Both the position numbers and the translations under genes were made by a program. A stretch of 31,464 nucleotides of DNA from a virus: positions 1-31,464 of the IMG/VR virus record IMGVR_UViG_3300024262_001471. One strand, 5' to 3'. This document shows, in pieces, positions 8,493 to 17,883 of this stretch. The notes beneath the pieces were generated by a model. It did no database searches. It worked only from the letters and a program-made list of their open reading frames with translations, and was not told where the DNA came from. The stretch's first letter is position 1; the number at the start of each line of letters is the position of its first letter.

Positions 8493-9659
8493 ATGAGTAA
8501 CAAATTAAAAATACTTTGTGTCCCCGCTAACGAGGGTGGCTGTGCATATTATAGAATCATTTCCCCTATGAAGAAGCTTGAGGAGCTTTACGGGGACAGA
8601 GTTGAGATCAGGTGGAACAAGAACCCTCTCGGCATTGACGAGAAGAACGGTAAGTGGAGACAGGATTGGGACTTCGCTGATATGAAGTGGGCTGACATCG
8701 TGTTCACCCAGAACCTATCCAACTTCGGGGGAAACTACACGGCAAGGATCGTTGGGAAGGCTAAGGAATTCGGCAAGTTCGTTCACTATGATACGGATGA
8801 TCTACTGACCAATATTTATAAGGGGCATAGGCTTTACAGCGTGTATAAGGAGAAGGGATTGGAGGAGATCACTAAGTTCATCTACTCTCACTCTGACCTT
8901 GTTACAGTAACACAGAGGAAGTTTGCTGAGAGAGTTAAACCTTTTATGGGACAAGGTAATGCGCTTGCGGTTGTAAAAAATAGCATTGATTACAACCTAC
9001 CTTGTTGGAATATGCCTAAGATGGCCCCACCCAAGAAGAAGTACACTCGCTTCGGTTGGGTAGGAGGTATTCACCATGAGCAGGACTTGAGGTACTTCTC
9101 TGGTGTTCCTCACATGGTTAATGGTAGGGCTGGTAGAGAGAATATCTGTTGGGACTTCTTTGGGCACCCACCTCCCAACACTCCTCCTGGAGACTGGCAG
9201 TATGATGTCTGGAAAAAGTACAGGGAGATTATCCTTAGAGGATTCAAGGGAGGTAAGAACTGGAATATTCACTATGCCCAGCAACCTGACCGTTATGGAC
9301 AAATGTTCACGATTATGGATGTTGCCCTTGCTCCTCTAGAGATGAATGCTTTTAATGATTCTAAATCAGAGATTAAGGTAGCAGAGTGTGGAAGGTACAA
9401 AATCCCTCTGGTAGCATCGAATGTAGGTAGTTATGATGAGTGGATTGTGGATGGTGAGACTGGGTTCTTGATTGATCACACGAAGCCTATTACTGAGTGG
9501 GTACGAATCCTCTCAAAATGCGCTAATGATCCAGGGCTTGTGAAGCGTATGGGTGAGAACCTTCACAAGATTACGGAAGAAAACTTTGACATGAACAAGG
9601 TTGCTATTCAAAGGCTTAACTTGTACGAGGAGTTGATGAGTGTCAAAGTCCAAGGTTAA
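8493..9659 (+). CDS. Glycosyltransferase, GT-B fold (GT4-like)
   Basis: A 388-residue GT-B enzyme. The N-terminal Rossmann-like half begins KLKILCVPANEGGCAYYRI. The C-terminal nucleotide-sugar half has the GT4 E-x7-E region (KVAECGRYKIPLVAS around residues 295-310) followed by EWIVDGETGFLID, the usual end of the donor site. It should transfer a sugar from an NDP donor with retention; sugar and acceptor are unknown. A GTG in frame at 8472 would add seven residues, but it lies inside the terminator stem, so the ATG at 8493 is preferred. No clear ribosome-binding site precedes that ATG. It is the first gene of the island and overlaps the next by 20 bases. Confidence 0.85.
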   Translation: MSNKLKILCVPANEGGCAYYRIISPMKKLEELYGDRVEIRWNKNPLGIDEKNGKWRQDWDFADMKWADIVFTQNLSNFGGNYTARIVGKAKEFGKFVHYDTDDLLTNIYKGHRLYSVYKEKGLEEITKFIYSHSDLVTVTQRKFAERVKPFMGQGNALAVVKNSIDYNLPCWNMPKMAPPKKKYTRFGWVGGIHHEQDLRYFSGVPHMVNGRAGRENICWDFFGHPPPNTPPGDWQYDVWKKYREIILRGFKGGKNWNIHYAQQPDRYGQMFTIMDVALAPLEMNAFNDSKSEIKVAECGRYKIPLVASNVGSYDEWIVDGETGFLIDHTKPITEWVRILSKCANDPGLVKRMGENLHKITEENFDMNKVAIQRLNLYEELMSVKVQG

Positions 9660-10422
9660 ACTAGTAAGTTCGTGGACTCGGCCTGGGGGCGGGACTGTAG
9701 CTCACATAAATCTAACTAATTTGTTAAATGACAATGGGTATGATTGCACCTTTTATGGCCCTCACGATTGGCATCTGGATAAGTGTAAATCAGATTCCTT
9801 AGATAAGTGCATTTTAGGGCCTGACGATATTTTGATTAGCCATTACATTAATGTCCCTGATGAAGTTAAAGTTAAACAGCATATTCTGTATTGTCACGAA
9901 AAAGAGGTCTTTCCACTTAAACAGGTTCCTCTGGCGCAGTACGATTTAATCGTATTTGTAAGTAATCTTCAAAAGGAGTGGCAGGGGGTTGATCACCCCT
10001 CTGTAATTATTCCTCCCGCAGTCAATAAGGTAGAATGGGAGAATCCCAATAATAAGGTCGCAGGAGTGATAGGCAGCATTGATTATAATAAGCAAACTCA
10101 CAAATCTATCAAAAGAGCGTTGAAGGATGGTTACAAGAAAGTACTTCTTTTTGGAGAGCTAAATGATACTCCCTATTATAATAAGACAGTGGCTAAATTA
10201 GTGAGATCAGGCAAGGCTGTTATGATGGGGCATGAGGACGAGCGAGAGGCTCTGTACGGGCAAGTAAGCGAAGTCTACCATTCCTCCCTTAGTGAAACCT
10301 ACGGGCTCGTAGAGGCCGAGTGTAGGCTCTCTGGGATACCCTTCAATGGGACCAGTAATGGACAAGAGATTTTGGAAAAAGAGGAGATTTTAGAAAAATG
10401 GAAAAAAGTACTGCATCAGTAA
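9640..10422 (+). CDS. Glycosyltransferase, GT-B fold (GT4-like)
   Basis: A 260-residue protein starting at a GTG with a GAGGAG box about 8 bases upstream, both within the end of the previous gene. It opens with a Rossmann-like segment containing GGGTVAHINLTNLLNDNG and ends with HSSLSETYGLVEAECRLSG, the acidic donor-binding motif of GT4-type enzymes, followed by FNGTSNGQEILEKEEI. At about two thirds of the length of a full GT-B enzyme it is a compact variant. The order and coupling with neighbouring transferases suggest successive sugar additions to one glycan. Donor and acceptor cannot be read from sequence. Confidence 0.75.
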   Translation: MSKSKVKLVSSWTRPGGGTVAHINLTNLLNDNGYDCTFYGPHDWHLDKCKSDSLDKCILGPDDILISHYINVPDEVKVKQHILYCHEKEVFPLKQVPLAQYDLIVFVSNLQKEWQGVDHPSVIIPPAVNKVEWENPNNKVAGVIGSIDYNKQTHKSIKRALKDGYKKVLLFGELNDTPYYNKTVAKLVRSGKAVMMGHEDEREALYGQVSEVYHSSLSETYGLVEAECRLSGIPFNGTSNGQEILEKEEILEKWKKVLHQ

Positions 10423-11105: not shown

Positions 11106-11851
11106 AATATTCTATAGGGATTACGACCTATAAGCATAGGTTTGAAAAATGGTTTAAACCATTGTTAGATCAAATCAAAGAACTCAGACCTGACATTGAA
11201 GTATTAGTCTGCGTTAATGGGGAAAATACTGAGGGTTATGACGAGGACTTCAGGAGGGAATTTTTTGAATACATTTCTACCAAGAGCAATACCTTTGTCA
11301 CTATGTACCCAACCTTTCGAGGTCTTACTAAGATGTGGAATAACCTGCTAATTGATTCTAGCAATCATCAGGTCTTATTATTAAATGATGATATTACCAT
11401 AACGGATGATACCTTTTTCCAGGCCCTGGAAAGTGTTATCCCCCAGGCCCAACTATTTAAGATAAACGGTAGTTGGAGTCATGCCCTCTTCGATAGGAGG
11501 CTTGTAAACGATATAGGTTGGTTTGATGAGAGGTACTTAGGAATTGGGGAAGAGGATGGGGATTTTGAGTGGAGGTTAGGAAGCAAAACAGGGGGTCAGA
11601 TTGTAGCTAATATAAACCTTCCAGGCGTAATTAATCATGTTGATCATACGGATTGTTTAGAGGGGATGAGAAAAACAAACGGAAAGTACTCTCAGTTTAA
11701 TTTTGATTTTGCGTTCTCTAAGAAATATAGAATAGACGAGGGGATCGGAGAGAACTACGGTATAATGAATAGGAGAGTAGTGTGTGATAGTCCAACTCCT
11801 CCCCTCCACACTACCGAATCGTTCTACTGGGAAAATAGGGATAAACTATGA
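11102..11851 (+). CDS. Glycosyltransferase family 2-like (GT-A fold)
   Basis: A 249-residue protein beginning at an ATGA overlap with the previous stop. MKYSIGITTYKHRFEKWF and VLVCVNGENTEGYDEDF fit the start of a GT2 domain. YPTFRGLTKMWNNLL and LLLNDDITITDD provide the acceptor-side helix and the acidic metal site, and WFDERYLGIGEEDGDFEWRL matches the GT2/GT27-like segment with the catalytic acidic residues. It should use an NDP-sugar donor; specificity is unknown. Confidence 0.75.
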   Translation: MKYSIGITTYKHRFEKWFKPLLDQIKELRPDIEVLVCVNGENTEGYDEDFRREFFEYISTKSNTFVTMYPTFRGLTKMWNNLLIDSSNHQVLLLNDDITITDDTFFQALESVIPQAQLFKINGSWSHALFDRRLVNDIGWFDERYLGIGEEDGDFEWRLGSKTGGQIVANINLPGVINHVDHTDCLEGMRKTNGKYSQFNFDFAFSKKYRIDEGIGENYGIMNRRVVCDSPTPPLHTTESFYWENRDKL

Positions 11852-12660: not shown

Positions 12661-13437
12661 ATGCCTAGAATGTTTGCTATTTGTGGGGACTCTGGAAGTG
12701 GAAAAACAACTATGGCTGCTATCCTCGATAACTACCTAACTAATTCTACTATCCATGAGTGTGATAGGTATCATAAATGGGAACGAGGAGACACGCATTG
12801 GGATAAGTTTACTCATTTGAATACCTCCGCTAATCATATATCATGGATGATTAATGATGCTGTGGAATTGAAAGCAGGAAATGACATTTTCTGTAGAGAC
12901 TACGACCATAAAACGGGGAAGTTTACAGAGGCTAAAGAGATAAGATCCTGTGAGAACATTATACTATGTGGCCTTCATACTTTTTATTGTCCTGAGGATA
13001 TGTTTATTTTGAAAATCTTTATGGACACTGCTGATGATCTGAAGACTCAATGGAAGATTTCCAGGGATACCAGTAAACGAGGACACTCCACTAAAACAGT
13101 AAAAGATCAAATACTTCGCCGTAAAGAGGATTATACAAAGTATCTCCAACCCCTTATTGAACAGGCGGACATCATAGTTAATTTTTGTAATGAGAAAGAT
13201 ACAGACCGTATTGATTCTGTGAAGGGTATCGGTAGGAGACTAGAATTATTTATAAAAGAACCTTATGATACCACTACTATTGTTAGAAAGTTTAAGGATA
13301 TTGGAGTGAGTACAGACCATCCTATTTCAAGCAGAGAAGGTTACACACAGATTAGTATAAAAAACTATAAGAAATTAGACAAGAATTATTACTATGATTA
13401 TGTTATGCTTTGTATTCAGGATATGATAGCAATATGA
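12661..13437 (+). CDS. Phosphoribulokinase/uridine kinase-family P-loop kinase
   Basis: A 258-residue P-loop kinase with Walker A GDSGSGKTT at residues 9-17. CDRYHKWERG (about 34-43) matches the substrate-side D-x-YH block of phosphoribulokinase, FCRDYDHKTGKF (about 77-88) the conserved IYNH-TG segment, and LKTQWKISRDTSKRGHS (127-143) with RRKEDYTKYLQP (153-164) the R-D...RGHS...RK-D-Y-P block that is closer to phosphoribulokinases than to ordinary uridine kinases. The likely reaction is ATP-dependent phosphorylation of a sugar, sugar phosphate or nucleoside. The true substrate is unknown. The next gene is a class II aldolase and the one after a HAD phosphatase, so it may serve a sugar-phosphate side pathway. 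A GAGGATAA box precedes the ATG. Confidence 0.7.
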   Translation: MPRMFAICGDSGSGKTTMAAILDNYLTNSTIHECDRYHKWERGDTHWDKFTHLNTSANHISWMINDAVELKAGNDIFCRDYDHKTGKFTEAKEIRSCENIILCGLHTFYCPEDMFILKIFMDTADDLKTQWKISRDTSKRGHSTKTVKDQILRRKEDYTKYLQPLIEQADIIVNFCNEKDTDRIDSVKGIGRRLELFIKEPYDTTTIVRKFKDIGVSTDHPISSREGYTQISIKNYKKLDKNYYYDYVMLCIQDMIAI

Positions 13438-14096
13438 AGTGGGAACTAAAAAATTTAGGTGAGGAGTTGTCCAGATTTGTCGTAGGTACAGAGGGAAATA
13501 TCTCAAAACGAACTGCTGATGGGTTTAGGATCAAGGCTAGTGGAGTTTCTCTAAAATATATGGATGAGGATTCATGTGTTGCGTGTACCTTAGATGGAGA
13601 TCCTATGGAGGGAGAGGTCAATAGACCTAGTATGGAGTGGAGCTTTCATTCGTGGATATTTAAGAACTCTACTTATCAAATAATCGCCCACACCCACCCA
13701 ACAAACACTCTAAAGATTCTATGTACTGATAACTTAATACATGAGTTTGCTACTAAGCGGTTATTTCCTGATCAGGTAGTGTTTAACGGGGAGGAAGCGT
13801 GTGTGGTTCCCTACGCTACCCCTGGACTGGAACTAACACAAGAAATACAGGATGCGGTTGGAGAATATATGATTCTTCGTGGAGAGTTTCCAAAGCTATT
13901 ATTATTAAAAAATCATGGGATAATTTGCTGTGCAAATACAGCCAAGGAAGCTATCATAATAACAGAGGTATGTGAGAAAGCAGCGGAGATATTTATAGGA
14001 TCTAAATCCCTGCACTCGGTTGATTTTCTCACGGATAAAGAAGTGAGGAGCATTATGGATCACGAAGATGAGAAATATAGGAGAAAATTAGTATGA
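13434..14096 (+). CDS. Class II aldolase/adducin-family protein
   Basis: A 220-residue protein of the FucA/AraD family. TEGNISKR (19-26) and IKASGVSLKYM form the phosphate-binding loops. RPSMEW gives E68, the position of the catalytic glutamate. AHTHP supplies zinc ligands H86 and H88, and LLLKNHGII supplies H161. The family includes L-fuculose- and rhamnulose-phosphate aldolases, ribulose-5-phosphate 4-epimerase and methylthioribulose-phosphate dehydratase; the zinc site and glutamate are intact, so activity is plausible. The ATG at 13434 forms an ATGA overlap with the kinase stop and is preferred to the in-frame TTG at 13410. Its partnership with the kinase suggests turnover or synthesis of a ketose phosphate or aldehyde unit for the glycan. 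Confidence 0.8.
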   Translation: MKWELKNLGEELSRFVVGTEGNISKRTADGFRIKASGVSLKYMDEDSCVACTLDGDPMEGEVNRPSMEWSFHSWIFKNSTYQIIAHTHPTNTLKILCTDNLIHEFATKRLFPDQVVFNGEEACVVPYATPGLELTQEIQDAVGEYMILRGEFPKLLLLKNHGIICCANTAKEAIIITEVCEKAAEIFIGSKSLHSVDFLTDKEVRSIMDHEDEKYRRKLV

Positions 14097-14401
14097 TTAT
14101 ATATGTTGACATTGATGAGACGATTTGTTTCTATGAGGAAGAAATTGCTTTAGACGGCAAGAAGGATTATAACACAGCTATCCCTAGTTCAGAGAATATA
14201 GCAAAAGTTAATAAGCTATATGATGAAGGAAATACTATTATCTTCTGGACAGCGAGGGGGAGTAGGAGTGGGATAGACTGGACAGAATTTACAAAAAACC
14301 AATTGTCTGGGTGGGGAGTAAAGTTCCATGAGGTACGGTGTGATAAACCATACTACGATCAGTTCGTAGAAGATAGAAGTATAAGGATTGAGGAATTATA
14401 A
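14093..14401 (+). CDS. HAD-like phosphatase (capsule-cluster type)
   Basis: A compact 102-residue HAD-fold protein. The nucleophile motif DIDETI near the N-terminus (D6, D8) and WTARG (motif II) are clear. QLSGWGVKFHEVRCDKPYYD supplies the motif III lysine, and FVEDRSI replaces the usual motif IV DDR by EDR. Small HAD proteins of this kind occur in capsule and surface-glycan clusters of bacteria and phages and probably dephosphorylate a sugar phosphate. It overlaps the aldolase by four bases. The missing cap domain suggests a bulky or protein-bound substrate, as inference only. Confidence 0.75.
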   Translation: MIIYVDIDETICFYEEEIALDGKKDYNTAIPSSENIAKVNKLYDEGNTIIFWTARGSRSGIDWTEFTKNQLSGWGVKFHEVRCDKPYYDQFVEDRSIRIEEL

Positions 14402-15025
14402 ATGAGCTACGATGATATTCACAGAGAGAATAGAGATGCCTTGGTTGAAAAGAATAAAGCATTTCTAGTTGATAAAGTCTTCCTTGAGTTTGGGGTATGT
14501 CGTGGGACCTCTATGGCTATGTGGCTAGAAGCGTACTCCAAGAATGAAGTACCTGAACACTTCCTTGGGTTTGACTCCTTCCAAGGGCTCCCAGAAGAGA
14601 CTGAGGACGAGAACTCTATCTGGCATACGGGAGAGTTTAGTACTGGAGGTGTGATCCCTACTCACCTTACCCAGGGCCGTAATGTTAAGTTTGTCGAAGG
14701 GTTCTATGAGGACTCTCTTACTGATGATGCTGTTGCTTTGCTTGAGGGGAAGAAGGTAGGTCTTATCCATATGGATTGTGATACCTACTCTTCCACTAAG
14801 ACAGTATGGGAATGGCTTATCAAGCATGATCTTCTAGCCAAAGGAGCTTTGGTAGTTTATGATGATTGGGGCTGCTATCTTGAAGCTGACTGTGGTGAAT
14901 ATGAAATTGGAGAGGCTAAGGCTCACGCAGAGATTGAAAAAACCCATGACCTTAGCTTTGTTGAGTTGGGTAGGTATATCGTTGATCCTAAGTTCTATGA
15001 AGTAACCATATTTAGATATGTATAA
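14402..15025 (+). CDS. TylF/macrocin O-methyltransferase-family methyltransferase
   Basis: A 207-residue class I SAM methyltransferase. VFLEFGVCRGTSMAMW is the SAM-binding motif I, HFLGFDSFQGLPEE motif post-I, and GLIHMDCDTYSSTKTVWEWL with ALVVYDDW the metal-binding acidic block typical of TylF-type sugar O-methyltransferases. It probably methylates a hydroxyl of a sugar in the glycan built by the surrounding enzymes. It starts one base after the upstream stop and overlaps the next gene by eight bases. Confidence 0.85.
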   Translation: MSYDDIHRENRDALVEKNKAFLVDKVFLEFGVCRGTSMAMWLEAYSKNEVPEHFLGFDSFQGLPEETEDENSIWHTGEFSTGGVIPTHLTQGRNVKFVEGFYEDSLTDDAVALLEGKKVGLIHMDCDTYSSTKTVWEWLIKHDLLAKGALVVYDDWGCYLEADCGEYEIGEAKAHAEIEKTHDLSFVELGRYIVDPKFYEVTIFRYV

Positions 15026-15926
15026 ACTAGATACTTTTTCTATTAACACCTACCCTCATGCTTTTTACATTGTCCATAATGGTGGAGGATGTGCCTTCGA
15101 AAGTAACAGGCTTTTCATTAAAGAATCTAATGATAATGCTTACCTAATCTCTGGGAACCTTGATGTTCCTGTAGTAAGTTATACACAGCAAGTAGTAGTA
15201 GAAGAAGATGTAATCCCTATTATAACTGCATTCCCCACAGGAGTACATGCCTATGTTGGAATCTTATCAATCCTTCTAAATTACTTTGATAACAAAGTAT
15301 TACTTCAAGGTAAAAAACTCCTCCTGTATAAGAATACACAGGCTGGTATCCTTGAGATCATAAACCATTTAGTATCTGAGAAAAAACTGAATGAGTCTGA
15401 CATACTTTATGCGGACCCAGAGGTGCTATACCAGTTTAAATCTGTAACCTTGATCCCCAACACCCTCCACAGCTATTTCGAGGATGAGACTATCAGAGAC
15501 TCCATTTCAGATTTTGTTTCTGATTACCTTAAAGAAGAGAAGCCTACTTCTTTAGATAATATATCAATCCTAAAGCATTTTGGGTCTGGGGTAACTTCCA
15601 ATATGGGTGCTATAGAATATGAGGTAGCTAAGGCGTTCTCGCACAGCATGGGGTATTGGCTAGTGGAACCTAAAGAGGTGGGAGAGCTTAAGGTAATAAA
15701 CTACTTAAGCAATGCAACTAGAGTTCTTTTCTCTTGGGGAACTACCTTTATGAAGAACTTTGTCTATGTATCGGATACATGTACTAAGATTGATGTGCTG
15801 GTCTTCGGAAGTTCCTTTAGGTATGAGTATGATAACGCAGTCTCCAGAGGCATCTTACCTCATACATTTAAGAATGCTACTATTCACTACCATTTAGACC
15901 CTGACCTTACAACCCTAACCATTTAG
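15018..15926 (+). CDS. Possible GT61-like glycosyltransferase
   Basis: A 302-residue protein of uncertain family. The C-terminal half has the order GAIEYEVAKAFSH, WLVEPKEVGELKVINYL, then SNATRVLFSWGTTFMKNFVYVS, which resembles the GT61/DUF563 pattern in which a helix after the conserved 'E...E' precedes an 'A..i.g.hGA...N..f' segment. The N-terminal half (HNGGGCAFESNRLFI) could be the acceptor domain. The GT61 call rests on this pattern and on its place among glycan genes. It could also be another glycan-modifying enzyme. Confidence 0.45.
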   Translation: MYKLDTFSINTYPHAFYIVHNGGGCAFESNRLFIKESNDNAYLISGNLDVPVVSYTQQVVVEEDVIPIITAFPTGVHAYVGILSILLNYFDNKVLLQGKKLLLYKNTQAGILEIINHLVSEKKLNESDILYADPEVLYQFKSVTLIPNTLHSYFEDETIRDSISDFVSDYLKEEKPTSLDNISILKHFGSGVTSNMGAIEYEVAKAFSHSMGYWLVEPKEVGELKVINYLSNATRVLFSWGTTFMKNFVYVSDTCTKIDVLVFGSSFRYEYDNAVSRGILPHTFKNATIHYHLDPDLTTLTI

Positions 15927-15931
15927 AGGCT

Positions 15932-16372
15932 ATGAGAATAATATCACACAGAGGAAATATTGAGGGACCTATTCCTGAGAAAGAAAACTGCCCAGAGTAC
16001 ATTAATAGTGCGCTTGCACAAGGTTTTGATGTCGAAGTAGATGTATGGTGGCTTCAAGGCCTTTTTTTAGGTCATGATGGTCCTGAATACACAATCTCTA
16101 AAGAGTGGCTGCTGGACCGAAAAGATCATTTATGGGTTCATTGTAAGAACTTAGAGGCAGCGCATCACTTAGCCAAGGAGTTCAGGTGTTTTTGTAGTGA
16201 CATTGACCCATACTGCTTCATGAGCCAAGGACACATATGGGTAAATGATGTAATTGTAAAACCACCACAAAACTGTGTGGTTCCTTTATTAGGTCTTGAA
16301 GATATACACAGTTATAAGTTTAAGGACGCAGCCTTCGCCATCTGCACAGATTACCCCCTAGAATTATTATGA
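15932..16372 (+). CDS. Short GDPD-like phosphodiesterase
   Basis: A 146-residue protein with the glycerophosphodiester phosphodiesterase signature: ISHRGN near the N-terminus (H6, R7), ENCPEYINSALAQGFDVEVDVWW with the E-x-D metal ligands, and LFLGHDGPEY supplying the second histidine. At about 60% of the length of a typical enzyme it covers only the catalytic front half of the barrel, a variant found in other glycan clusters. It may hydrolyse or trim phosphodiester-linked substituents. An AGAGG box lies just upstream. The residues are visible; the substrate is inferred only from context. Confidence 0.7.
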   Translation: MRIISHRGNIEGPIPEKENCPEYINSALAQGFDVEVDVWWLQGLFLGHDGPEYTISKEWLLDRKDHLWVHCKNLEAAHHLAKEFRCFCSDIDPYCFMSQGHIWVNDVIVKPPQNCVVPLLGLEDIHSYKFKDAAFAICTDYPLELL

Positions 16373-17883
16373 AGAATATCCAATTAGTTATCCCTATGGC
16401 GGGAAGTAGTGAAATGTTTACAGACGCTGGCTACGCCAGCCCAAAGTGGTTGATTGACATAGATGGAAAGCCTATGATTCAACATGTTGTTGATCAGTTC
16501 CCTGGAGTTACTGATATATTATTTATTTGTAAAGAGGATGATGTGCAAGATCAAAAAACATACGATACATTACATTCCTTGGGTGGTAAAGTAGTTAAGA
16601 TAAAAGAAAGTAGCGGTGGTCCTATGGACACGGTGCTACAAGCTTCCGAATACATATCAGATGATAAGGAGATTATAATTAGTTATTGTGATCATGGTAT
16701 GGTCTGGGAGTGTAGTTCCTTTTTAGAAAAGATTAGGAGTGGGAACTTTGATGGTGCTATGACTGGCTATAGAGAGTTCCATCCCCATATGTTAGGGACA
16801 ACTAATCTATACACTTTTTTATTACAAGAGAACAATAAACTGCTGGAAGTACAAGACAAAGAGCCCTTTACAGAAAGCAGGAAGTCCGAGTTTGTTTCTA
16901 GCGATGTATTCTACTTTAAAACTGGAAGCATTCTAAAAAAATACATGGAGGCTGCTACCCAAGCTCCAGACCAGAATGGATTCCTTGCCTTAGCATACAA
17001 CCTGTTAGTGAAAGACAGTTTGAGTGTGTATATTCATGAGGTTGATAAGATGTTGTTGTGGGCTACACCAGAAGACTTAGAAATTTATAAGCAATGGTTA
17101 AACTACTTCAATCAAAAGTCGGTTGATAAGGCATCAGAGCAAGACTTCACGGTAATTGTTCCCATGTGTGGTAAGGGGAGTAGGTTTGCCAAGGAAGGAT
17201 ATGAACTACCTAAACCCCTACTCCCTATTGGTGATTCACCTATGTTTGCTGGAGTTGTAGACTGCTTACCGAAGCATACTAATAATGTTTTTATCTGTTC
17301 AAAAGAACATAATGCTGATGAGTTAATTAAGAGTTATTATCCCAAAGCAAAGGTTAGAAGTATTGATTTTGTTACTGAGGGATTTGCGGAGTCTTGCGAG
17401 TTAGGGATTGATCTTATTGACGAGGACACACCCATTATGATTTCTCCCTGTGATAATGGGGTTTCCTACGATGAGGAGAGATTTTTGAGGATGATTGCTG
17501 ATGAAGATAATGATGTTATCTTTTGGGTCATTAGAGGTAGCCAATCAACCGAGGTAAATCCAGCCATGTATACTTGGGCATATGTTGATGAGGATAACTA
17601 CTTACTCGATATGGTTTACAAGGAGAAACCTGATAGTGATTTAAAAACCACCCCCGTAAGTATTGGGATCATGTATTTTAGAAAAGCTAAGTATCTTCTA
17701 GAAGGTCTTTCTAAAAATCGTGATCAGAATATAAGACCAACAGGAGAGCTTTGTATGGATAGCGTTGCTCATCAACTTGTAAAAAGTAACTACAAGGTTA
17801 AAGTGTTTGAGGCAGACCATTACGCTTGTTGGGGAACCCCTGATGATTACAAAACTTACAACTTTTGGGAGAGAGCATTTTGA
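16369..17883 (+). CDS. Tandem two-domain sugar nucleotidyltransferase, N-domain degenerate
   Basis: A 504-residue protein made of two consecutive NTP-transferase domains (about 1-245 and 258-504) that align with each other. The C-terminal copy has the canonical PMCGKGSRF loop (265-273), PKPLLPI, and a CDN metal site. The N-terminal copy reads PMAGSSEMF (9-17), PKWLIDI and CDH, so the glycine and the arginine of the GxGxR loop are replaced. Both keep the lysine of the PK motif. The working half probably activates a sugar phosphate as an NDP-sugar. The altered half may be a regulatory, structural or differently specific domain. The ATG overlaps the GDPD stop and the final TGA overlaps the next start. 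Confidence 0.8.
   Translation: MKNIQLVIPMAGSSEMFTDAGYASPKWLIDIDGKPMIQHVVDQFPGVTDILFICKEDDVQDQKTYDTLHSLGGKVVKIKESSGGPMDTVLQASEYISDDKEIIISYCDHGMVWECSSFLEKIRSGNFDGAMTGYREFHPHMLGTTNLYTFLLQENNKLLEVQDKEPFTESRKSEFVSSDVFYFKTGSILKKYMEAATQAPDQNGFLALAYNLLVKDSLSVYIHEVDKMLLWATPEDLEIYKQWLNYFNQKSVDKASEQDFTVIVPMCGKGSRFAKEGYELPKPLLPIGDSPMFAGVVDCLPKHTNNVFICSKEHNADELIKSYYPKAKVRSIDFVTEGFAESCELGIDLIDEDTPIMISPCDNGVSYDEERFLRMIADEDNDVIFWVIRGSQSTEVNPAMYTWAYVDEDNYLLDMVYKEKPDSDLKTTPVSIGIMYFRKAKYLLEGLSKNRDQNIRPTGELCMDSVAHQLVKSNYKVKVFEADHYACWGTPDDYKTYNFWERAF

Follow-up and report, generated by a model that had tools for sequence, protein, structure and literature searches.

A conserved phage gene module with a putative phosphoribulokinase-type kinase, probably supplying a glycan precursor

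A kinase, an aldolase-fold enzyme and a HAD-type phosphatase encoded at positions 12,661 to 14,401 of a viral DNA stretch of 31,464 nucleotides (the window; IMG/VR record IMGVR_UViG_3300024262_001471) are part of a five-enzyme module, completed by a protein of predicted glycerophosphodiester phosphodiesterase (GDPD) fold and a two-domain nucleotidyltransferase. We consider it very probable that this module supplies a glycan precursor and that its kinase is of the phosphoribulokinase (PRK) type and not a uridine kinase. The product is most likely an activated precursor of an unusual kind, used to build surface sugars and made by chemistry that we infer. A preliminary description had read the three genes as a dedicated sugar-phosphate side pathway within a glycan island, and this interpretation is partly supported overall: the conserved company of glycan-type genes speaks for it, and the unit is larger than the trio. 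The module is common among viruses, where annotation leaves its genes without a function or gives them a wrong label. Large phages thereby share a gene set that, across many phyla, neighbours genes for cell-surface glycans. Should our reading prove correct, it would identify where rare glycan units of ketose or alditol type come from, extend the PRK kinase family into glycan synthesis and define a set of just five enzymes suited to a one-pot assay.

Gene content of the module in the window and in other phages

All genes described for the window lie on its plus strand. The kinase is an unfused P-loop protein of 258 aa (12661-13437; PF00485, E 2e-33) and contains the strings DRYHKW, ISRDTSKRGHS and RRKEDYTKYLQP that had been singled out as PRK-like. 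It is followed by a class II aldolase/epimerase-fold enzyme of 220 aa with an intact zinc site (13434-14096; PF00596, E 1.6e-30) and by a compact HAD-type phosphatase of 102 aa (14093-14401; phrog_1238, E 4.5e-26). Direct reading of the sequence showed that the kinase stop and the aldolase start overlap in an ATGA (13434-13437), as do the aldolase stop and the HAD start (14093-14096). The positions, the families (PF00485, PF00596, a HAD with DxDxT motif) and the coupling by ATGA overlaps or close spacing given in the preliminary description were all confirmed. The aldolase start was placed at the ATG at 13434; a TTG upstream, at 13410, is likewise open. The next gene begins at 14402, directly after the HAD stop.

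Two genes outside the conserved core separate the trio from the rest of the module. One encodes a TylF/Methyltransf_24-type methyltransferase (14402-15025; PF13578, E 3.8e-10), a frequent neighbour found in 28 of 61 sources that were not dereplicated. The other encodes a 302 aa protein (15018-15926) that gave no Pfam match up to E 10 and was not among the 45 most widespread neighbour clusters. The core resumes with a short protein of 146 aa (15932-16372), for which a GDPD TIM-barrel fold is predicted. Its AlphaFold2 model (mean pLDDT 96.2) had the GDPD structure 1v8e as best Foldseek match (E 3.4e-4) and aligned to 1o1z with a VIA-align Z of 10.6 and an rmsd of 3.2 over 138 residues. Residues H6, E35, D37, H48 and K72 were invariant in 35 aligned rows, a His/Glu/Asp/His/Lys pattern that we take to be the catalytic pattern of glycerophosphodiester phosphodiesterases. 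The last core gene encodes the two-domain nucleotidyltransferase of 504 aa (16369-17883; PF12804, E 8.4e-17; PF00483, E 4.9e-10; phrog_3980, E 2e-89). A motif comparison found the motif of its N-terminal domain altered in the window's lineage, and in the window's own clade this first domain looks degenerate. For the second domain the closest structural matches were HddC-like and PntC proteins (6jq8, E 2.8e-4; 6pd1, E 3.1e-4), and the related phage nucleotidyltransferase of L008 matched PF01128 at E 2e-7.

The kinase used as bait yielded 36 dereplicated viral loci, loci sharing more than 30% of sampled 25-mers having been dropped. Among the 32 of at least 14 kb, the aldolase was present in 29, the HAD in 32, the GDPD-fold protein in 32 and the nucleotidyltransferase in 31; the corresponding counts in 26 control glycan loci picked by GDP-mannose dehydratase (GMD) were 2, 3, 4 and 4. 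Kinase, aldolase and HAD occurred together in 29 of these 32 kinase loci versus 1 of the 26 control loci. The viral relatives behind the dereplicated counts were the best 80 of 160, the best 80 of 585 and 80 of 112, and with the GDPD bait the confirmed stretches in a single viral collection numbered at least 585. Some rows of the kinase profile, having been cut at the first GDS, include a stretch of the fused N-terminal domain and could have raised the kinase counts; the same cutting left at least two rows of the kinase alignment (A5) short. The profile called none of 16 module loci without a kinase kinase-positive, and many of these carry the gene for the N-terminal domain.

The preliminary description had expected a conserved three-gene module. 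The set does recur in other phages, but strict contiguity was seen in only 20 of 55 loci having all three genes, and in 46 of 61 sources no more than 120 bases separated the HAD gene from the aldolase gene, neither count being dereplicated. The kinase, aldolase and phosphatase travel together as members of a larger, widely conserved gene set, to which the GDPD-fold gene and the nucleotidyltransferase gene must be added. Four kinase-bearing records, including one of 131 kb, gave no aldolase, so this enzyme may not be needed in every version of the module.

Residue-level comparison of the enzymes with known families

The kinase appears to be of the phosphoribulokinase rather than the uridine-kinase type. 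It scored 116 bits against PF00485 (cut-off 22) with the P-loop GDSGSGKT, and its match to the NCBIfam subfamily PRK07429 (144.3 bits, under the cut-off of 236) exceeded its matches to the Udk families (65.2 bits of 180 and 54.6 of 220.3, both under the cut-off). A residue comparison showed that the window kinase retains D35, H38, R42, Y81, H83, H106, K132, R135 and R140. Ru5P-binding and catalytic residues of PRK named in the accessible parts of PMC5241800 and PMC9978339 map to D35, H38, R42, Y81, H83, K132 and R135, and these seven were kept in 21 of 21 phage members and in 10 of 10 chosen bacterial members. The likeness to the plant/cyanobacterial and methanogen enzymes treated there covers the P-loop, the catalytic Asp-His pair, the Ru5P-binding His, Arg, Tyr, His and Lys, and the ATP-binding Arg. 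E. coli Udk has Y, Y, L and R where the kinase family has H38, H83, H106 and K132, and all four PRK-specific positions were kept in the same 21 phage and 10 bacterial members. In the tree, the kinase family was separate from a branch (support 100/99) that united E. coli Udk with five further PF00485 proteins. Because of the pocket residues and the tree placement we favour PRK and reject the uridine kinase identity.

The kinase nevertheless differs from known PRKs: the window protein falls under the PRK07429 cut-off, and the family stands apart from the PRKs in the tree and has a glycan context and fusions to glycosyltransferase-fold domains. At the position of the Walker B Glu, common to PRK and Udk, the window kinase has C103, and Glu was present in 0 of 21 phage and 2 of 10 bacterial members, so these kinases may differ in how they bind metal or even in whether they are active. 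In most phage relatives the kinase is the C-terminal half of a protein of about 480 aa, and the domain N-terminal to it has a GT-A fold (best Foldseek match 3zgf, E 2.6e-6). The bacterial kinases carry an N-terminal domain with 7-10 predicted membrane segments (38 of 38), which was weakly GT87-like in two of four tested.

The aldolase-fold enzyme scored 106.8 bits against PF00596 (cut-off 22.2), and its E68 and zinc histidines H86, H88 and H161, whose integrity had been reported earlier, were invariant in 23 aligned phage rows. It fell under every NCBIfam cut-off listed. The best match was PRK06557, an L-ribulose-5-phosphate 4-epimerase subfamily (71.6 bits, cut-off 251), the second best RU1PAldHalo, the haloarchaeal ribulose-1-phosphate aldolase (68.4 bits, cut-off 300), and the L-fuculose-1-phosphate aldolase equivalogs gave 66.2 bits of 264 and 49.7 of 400. 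With FucA and AraD it shares the fold family, the three zinc histidines, the phosphate-loop Asn and Gly, and the Glu at FucA Glu73. Among the FucA phosphate-site residues, Asn29, Gly44 and Ser71 are kept and Thr43 is replaced by Ser. It departs from them in having Met/Ile at FucA Ser72, in a variable column at FucA Tyr113, where the alignment is uncertain, and in combining an Asp at AraD Asp120 with Glu, the FucA aldolase residue, at AraD Asp76. AraD Tyr229 has no counterpart. The residue aligned with AraD Asp120, D113 of the window enzyme, was invariant in the 23 phage rows, in a stretch of uncertain alignment; Asp120 is named as catalytic for epimerisation (PMC5434028).

The HAD protein matched no Pfam HAD family above the cut-off in a Pfam scan. 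Its DxDxT motif is formed by D6, D8 and T10, and these together with T53, K85 and D94 (motifs DxDxT, WTARG and KPYYD) were conserved across 60 relatives, each in 95% of them or more. Phage HADs of its family carry the label phosphoheptose isomerase, which the DxDxT motif, suggestive of a phosphatase, does not support.

A candidate route and its alternatives

Under the reading that we prefer, the trio would be the sugar-phosphate-supplying half of a glycan-precursor module. The kinase would phosphorylate O1 of a pentulose 5-phosphate, either ribulose 5-phosphate or an isomer, the HAD would take off the 5-phosphate of the resulting 1,5-bisphosphate, and the nucleotidyltransferase would activate the pentulose 1-phosphate to an NDP-linked pentulose or derived alditol. 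The aldolase may equilibrate or reshape the pentulose 1-phosphate by reversible cleavage to DHAP and glycolaldehyde, or by 4-epimerisation. Glycosyltransferases beside or fused to the kinase would then attach the activated unit, and the resulting phosphodiester would be the substrate of the GDPD-fold protein. Of the individual chemistries considered, this route through a pentulose 1,5-bisphosphate is the most probable, although we put it forward tentatively; it is supported by the conserved Ru5P-pocket residues and by precedents in haloarchaea and Campylobacter jejuni. Against it count the loss of the Walker B Glu, the sub-threshold scores and altered FucA residues of the aldolase, the kinase-bearing records in which no aldolase was found, and the degenerate look of the first nucleotidyltransferase domain in the window's clade.

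In the non-carboxylating pentose bisphosphate pathway of halophilic archaea, as described in the accessible part of PMC9700705, a HAD converts RuBP to Ru1P and a FucA-type aldolase cleaves Ru1P to DHAP and glycolaldehyde. That account has a kinase, a HAD phosphatase and a FucA-type aldolase, with HAD and aldolase in one operon and with RuBP, which the present trio would use, as intermediate. The haloarchaeal kinase, in contrast, acts on ribose 1-phosphate and is followed by an isomerase, and the pathway is catabolic and, so far as that part shows, without nucleotidyltransferase, GDPD-fold protein or glycosyltransferase. None of the Pfam-scanned window genes suggested a ribose-1-phosphate kinase or an R15P isomerase. 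C. jejuni HS:5 offers the other precedent: as set out in the accessible part of PMC10918830, its CDP-6-D-fructose/CDP-6-D-glucitol pathway lies in a glycan locus, and a fructose-6-phosphate cytidylyltransferase (PF01128, IspD) activates a ketose phosphate directly. Unlike the module, this is a two-enzyme route in which a reductase follows the cytidylyltransferase, described there without kinase, aldolase or HAD. The earlier statement that no established phage pathway with exactly this trio was known holds in that none was found in the literature, but the haloarchaeal pathway is a close chemical parallel. No published description of the module was found in a literature search that covered few subscription journals.

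Kinase, HAD and nucleotidyltransferase also match the step order of heptose synthesis. The kinase could accordingly make a 1,omega-bisphosphate of another sugar, from which the HAD removes the omega-phosphate and the nucleotidyltransferase forms an ordinary NDP-aldose, as in ADP/GDP-heptose synthesis, with the aldolase-fold enzyme preparing the sugar phosphate as an epimerase or isomerase. The proximity of the second nucleotidyltransferase domain to HddC-like and PntC structures and the label on the phage HAD family fit such a scheme, but heptose kinases are of PfkB/GHMP type, the module kinase is homologous to PRK with the Ru5P pocket kept, and the HAD's own motif does not support its label. 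We regard this explanation as possible but unlikely. The aldolase-fold enzyme may instead be an AraD-like 4-epimerase that makes an L-configured or rare pentulose phosphate, which kinase, HAD and nucleotidyltransferase then activate. The PRK06557 match and the invariant D113 speak for this reading; the Glu at AraD Asp76, the lack of a Tyr229 counterpart and the uncertain alignment around D113 weigh against it, and we consider it unlikely.

Two further alternatives would place the enzymes outside glycan synthesis. A carbon shunt turning ribulose 5-phosphate into DHAP and glycolaldehyde for infection metabolism, and located in a glycan island by chance, would use chemistry that is identical to the catabolic chemistry of haloarchaea (accessible part of PMC9700705). 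We judge it very unlikely because of the gene company of the aldolase: among 45 dereplicated loci of 14 kb or longer, it had the nucleotidyltransferase gene beside it in 41 and the GDPD-fold gene in 42; the fusion of the kinase to a glycosyltransferase-fold domain in most phages and the GT2 and GtrA genes of the cellular module count against it as well. That the kinase serves phage nucleotide salvage as a uridine/cytidine kinase and has no connection with the aldolase is extremely improbable: it shares the family PF00485 with such enzymes, but its residues and tree branch differ from theirs, glycan genes are its constant company, and some module-bearing bacteria (e.g. G005) encode a separate Udk-like PF00485 protein.

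Cellular relatives and cyanophages

Bacteria and archaea of many phyla carry an operon of the same kinase and aldolase with nucleotidyltransferases, a GDPD-like protein and a different HAD. In 40 bacterial and archaeal kinase loci, not dereplicated, we counted the aldolase in 35, a nucleotidyltransferase in 34, GT2 in 31, the GDPD-like protein in 29, HAD_2 in 27 and GtrA in 12. The GDPD-like proteins of phages and bacteria were related at profile level only (probability 93.3, E 2.6e-7), and single-sequence Pfam and PDB searches with the bacterial protein gave nothing useful. Orthology of the phage and bacterial HADs was not supported, the hhalign probability being only 12%, and the phosphatase therefore seems to have been replaced.

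A broader hypothesis is that a route not yet described, common to phages and to scattered bacteria and archaea, converts pentulose 5-phosphate to a 1,5-bisphosphate (RuBP or an isomer) independently of carbon fixation and leads on to a nucleotide-activated ketose or alditol destined for surface glycan, the kinase being fused to glycosyltransferases, and that in phages of Calvin-cycle hosts the kinase was lost because the bisphosphate comes from the host. Taken as a whole, we consider this quite unlikely. Matches to psbA/hli were found in 7 of 16 kinase-free module records versus 0 of 34 kinase-bearing ones (counts that ignore relatedness), a contrast that supply of the bisphosphate by a Calvin-cycle host would explain and that also counts in favour of the preferred pentulose route. 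Among cyanophages, the five complete genomes that contain module genes (with the aldolase in two of them) all encode CP12, an inhibitor of host PRK, and this speaks against host supply of RuBP. When photosynthetic cyanobacteria were tested for a module without kinase, 12 of 244 genomes proved to have the nucleotidyltransferase, and in at least one of them (G083) the 9.6 kb that were read contained no further module gene. Kinase and aldolase were absent from the stretch read in the psbA-bearing G190 and G300, and likewise in genomes without psbA; G207, G228 and G233, all without psbA, have the nucleotidyltransferase-HAD-GDPD core and no kinase. A PRK-type kinase was not found in the genome of Synechococcus phage S-SM2, whose LPS genes are left open as to functionality in the accessible part of PMC3037559. 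The S-SM2 LPS gene cluster resembles the module in its aldolase, HAD, GDPD-like and two-domain nucleotidyltransferase genes, and differs in a GT61 gene that lies between the nucleotidyltransferase and the aldolase.

Module content in viral genomes

The window is a 31,464-base virus record from IMG/VR. The kinase (12661-13437; PF00485, E 2e-33), the aldolase (13434-14096; PF00596, E 1.6e-30) and the HAD gene (14093-14401) are open frames on the same strand of the window, and the first two matches lie far over the Pfam cut-offs. Two ATGA overlaps, read directly in the sequence, join kinase to aldolase and aldolase to HAD, confirming the positions and coupling given in the preliminary description. 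The sole good match of the HAD gene was PHROG family phrog_1238 (E 4.5e-26). Glycosyltransferases, methyltransferases, a GDP-mannose dehydratase and a GDP-fucose-synthase-like gene surround the trio, and ribonucleotide reductase and RecA genes flank this glycan island on either side. Positions 15018-15926, between a methyltransferase and the GDPD-like gene, encode a 302 aa protein that belongs to no known family. PHROGs and cyanophage records tag the compact HAD family as phosphoheptose isomerase, yet it contains the HAD phosphatase motif; Synechococcus phage S-SM2 has two copies (9654-9965 and 11295-11624 in its locus L128).

A kinase scan yielded 57 viral loci and an aldolase scan 29. The 57 kinase loci, three new aldolase loci and the window gave 61 sources, in which the commonest families were the kinase (60), the HAD (60), a ~150 aa GDPD-like protein (59; window 15932-16372), the aldolase (56) and a two-domain nucleotidyltransferase of ~520 aa (51; window 16369-17883). 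The genes typically run from kinase through aldolase, HAD and ~150 aa protein to nucleotidyltransferase, with extra genes interspersed, and all five were present in 46 of the 61. The module thus goes beyond the proposed trio to five families. Co-occurrence of the trio held (55/61 sources, the window included), but strict contiguity, defined as gaps <120 bases, was found in only 20 of these 55.

Co-occurrence was examined with four baits and one profile set, after near-copies and loci <14 kb had been dropped. Loci found with the kinase (n = 32) contained the aldolase in 29, the HAD in 32, the GDPD-like protein in 32 and the nucleotidyltransferase in 31; the aldolase bait (n = 45) gave kinase 27, HAD 42, GDPD-like 42 and nucleotidyltransferase 41. 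With the GDPD-like bait (n = 48, from the best 80 of at least 585 relatives) the counts were nucleotidyltransferase 46, aldolase 39, HAD 39 and kinase 24. As a control, the GDP-mannose dehydratase from the window's island was used as bait (n = 26) and gave kinase 1, aldolase 2, HAD 3, GDPD-like 4 and nucleotidyltransferase 4. From these counts, the core consists of the GDPD-like protein and the nucleotidyltransferase, to which HAD and aldolase are usually added, with the kinase as the most optional member. A search run without a positive control found no aldolase in four records that carry the kinase; these are 19 to 131 kb long and may be fragments.

Orphan relatives of the aldolase in loci L187, L190, L192, L197, L200, L202, L204-L209 and L212, and in Synechococcus phage S-SCSM2R (L130), lie outside glycan islands and adjoin small genes of unknown function. 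The only kinase matches in the phages collection were PRK/uridine-kinase family genes in OR851030.1, AFYI01000003.1 and AGRM01000003.1, which are filed as phages and resemble Salmonella host DNA.

Kinase and aldolase

Substrate and catalytic residues of phosphoribulokinase (PRK), as named in PMC5241800 and PMC9978339, map to D35, H38, R42, Y81, H83, K132 and R135 of the kinase. All seven were identical in 21/21 phage members, in 10/10 bacterial members chosen from 38, and in two structurally characterised PRKs. At positions 38, 83 and 132, E. coli uridine kinase (Udk) instead carries Y, Y and R, and H106 shows a similar contrast, Udk having L there. A tree of 40 rows set the Udk branch apart (support 100/99); 19 of the 21 phage kinases shared one branch (95/94), and the window kinase joined those of L003, L004 and L073 (100/98). 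The residues and the tree bear out the earlier phosphoribulokinase-like assignment and indicate a kinase of PRK type. Two observations argue against calling it simply a PRK: 21/21 phage and 8/10 bacterial kinases lack the Walker B Glu, and the window kinase scores 144 of the 236 bits of the PRK cut-off.

Its domain context links the kinase to glycosyl transfer. Most phage versions form the C-terminal half of a ~480 aa protein, whose modelled N-terminal half (mean pLDDT 90.3) matched GT-A glycosyltransferases, with 3zgf as the best hit (E 2.6e-6); the kinase is unfused in the window, as in the related L003, L004 and L073. Cellular kinases lie at the C-terminal end of a ~690 aa protein, for which a Kyte-Doolittle count predicted 7-10 membrane segments in 38/38, and N-terminal parts gave a weak GT87 match, below cut-off, in two of four tested.

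E. coli FucA and AraD served as references for an alignment of 11 phage aldolases and 7 of the 35 bacterial ones, with residue roles taken from PMC11841055 and PMC5434028. The aldolase keeps the zinc histidines, E68 as the equivalent of FucA Glu73, and the phosphate loop for the most part; Met or Ile replaces FucA Ser72, the column of Tyr113 varies, and an invariant D113 aligns with AraD Asp120 within a stretch of uncertain alignment. The top NCBIfam matches, a ribulose-5-phosphate 4-epimerase subfamily (71.6 bits) and then haloarchaeal ribulose-1-phosphate aldolase (68.4 bits), were both far below cut-off. The aldolase seems to be a separate subfamily for which cleavage and epimerisation are both possible.

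Core proteins and cellular counterparts

The window's ~150 aa protein has a GDPD fold. Its AlphaFold2 model (mean pLDDT 96.2) had a Thermus GDPD as best Foldseek match (E 3.4e-4), VIA-align gave Z 10.6 and rmsd 3.2 over 138 residues against 1o1z, and the first ten VIA-align rows were GDPDs nearly throughout. Across 35 rows of the family H6, E35, D37, H48 and K72 never vary, which is the residue pattern of the GDPD active site. Members of this family abound in viruses, with at least 585 confirmed stretches in the viral_contigs collection. In the nucleotidyltransferases of the window, L003, L004 and L073 the first domain lacks the usual glycine-rich SGxGKRF and PKP motifs (AGSSEMF and PKW in the first ~250 codons of the window's gene) and the C-terminal domain is intact, so the window's module may make do with one active domain.

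When a single genome of each species was scanned with the kinase alignment, 40 cellular loci emerged, from Lachnospiraceae, Paenibacillus, Cohnella, Leptospiraceae, Gastranaerophilales, Omnitrophota, Bacteroidetes, Aenigmatarchaeota and others. These loci, with near-copies retained, many broken by contig ends and Pfam names taken from the Paenibacillus locus, contained the kinase protein in 38, the aldolase in 35, the nucleotidyltransferase in 34 (one fused gene or two), GT2 in 31, a ~195 aa GDPD-like protein in 29, an HAD_2 phosphatase in 27 and GtrA in 12. The module is common to phages, bacteria and archaea. When phage and cellular families were compared profile against profile, the probabilities were 100% for kinase and nucleotidyltransferase, 99.9% for the aldolase, 93.3% for the GDPD-like protein and just 12.1% for the HAD. 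This places the cellular phosphatase in a different HAD branch and suggests that the module conserves the phosphatase reaction rather than the gene.

Candidate pathway and kinase-free variant

In the haloarchaeal non-carboxylating pentose bisphosphate pathway, as described in PMC9700705, an HAD phosphatase converts ribulose 1,5-bisphosphate to ribulose 1-phosphate, which a FucA-type aldolase cleaves to DHAP and glycolaldehyde. That pathway uses ribose-1-phosphate kinase and an isomerase, whereas the present module has a PRK-type kinase, which in their place would lead from ribulose 5-phosphate to the same intermediates; the nucleotidyltransferase would act next. Activation of a ketose phosphate by a nucleotidyltransferase has a precedent in fructose 6-phosphate of C. 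jejuni (PMC10918830). Given these intermediates, the nucleotidyltransferase and this precedent, the likeliest branch point would be pentulose 1-phosphate, with each substrate and product inferred. The constituent families are known, and the module is probably a glycan-precursor pathway. The literature searched gave no published account of the module as a unit; PMC3037559 mentions the S-SM2 LPS cluster and leaves its function open.

Among the 29 dereplicated aldolase-bait loci free of the kinase, 13 were orphan aldolases in other surroundings. The other 16 carried a second type of module, which mostly comprised nucleotidyltransferase, GT61 (15/16), aldolase, HAD and GDPD-like gene, often with the GT-A-type gene after them. 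Its cultured carriers are Synechococcus phages S-SM2 and Bellamy, in whose full records a search without a positive control found no kinase. Of the 16 second-type records, three had psbA, six had hli-type matches, just some of which passed the family cut-off, and seven had either, vs. none of 34 mostly longer kinase-bearing records (Fisher p = 1.1e-4, relatedness of records ignored). This contrast fits a supply of RuBP by Calvin-cycle hosts, or it may merely reflect lineage. CP12 is an inhibitor of host PRK, and its presence in all five complete cyanophages checked (7/21 records overall) speaks against host-supplied RuBP. In the stretches read of two psbA-bearing genomes, G300 (L394) and G190 (L395), no kinase or aldolase was found; both are of the same phylum as genome G002 and carry nucleotidyltransferase and GDPD-like genes.
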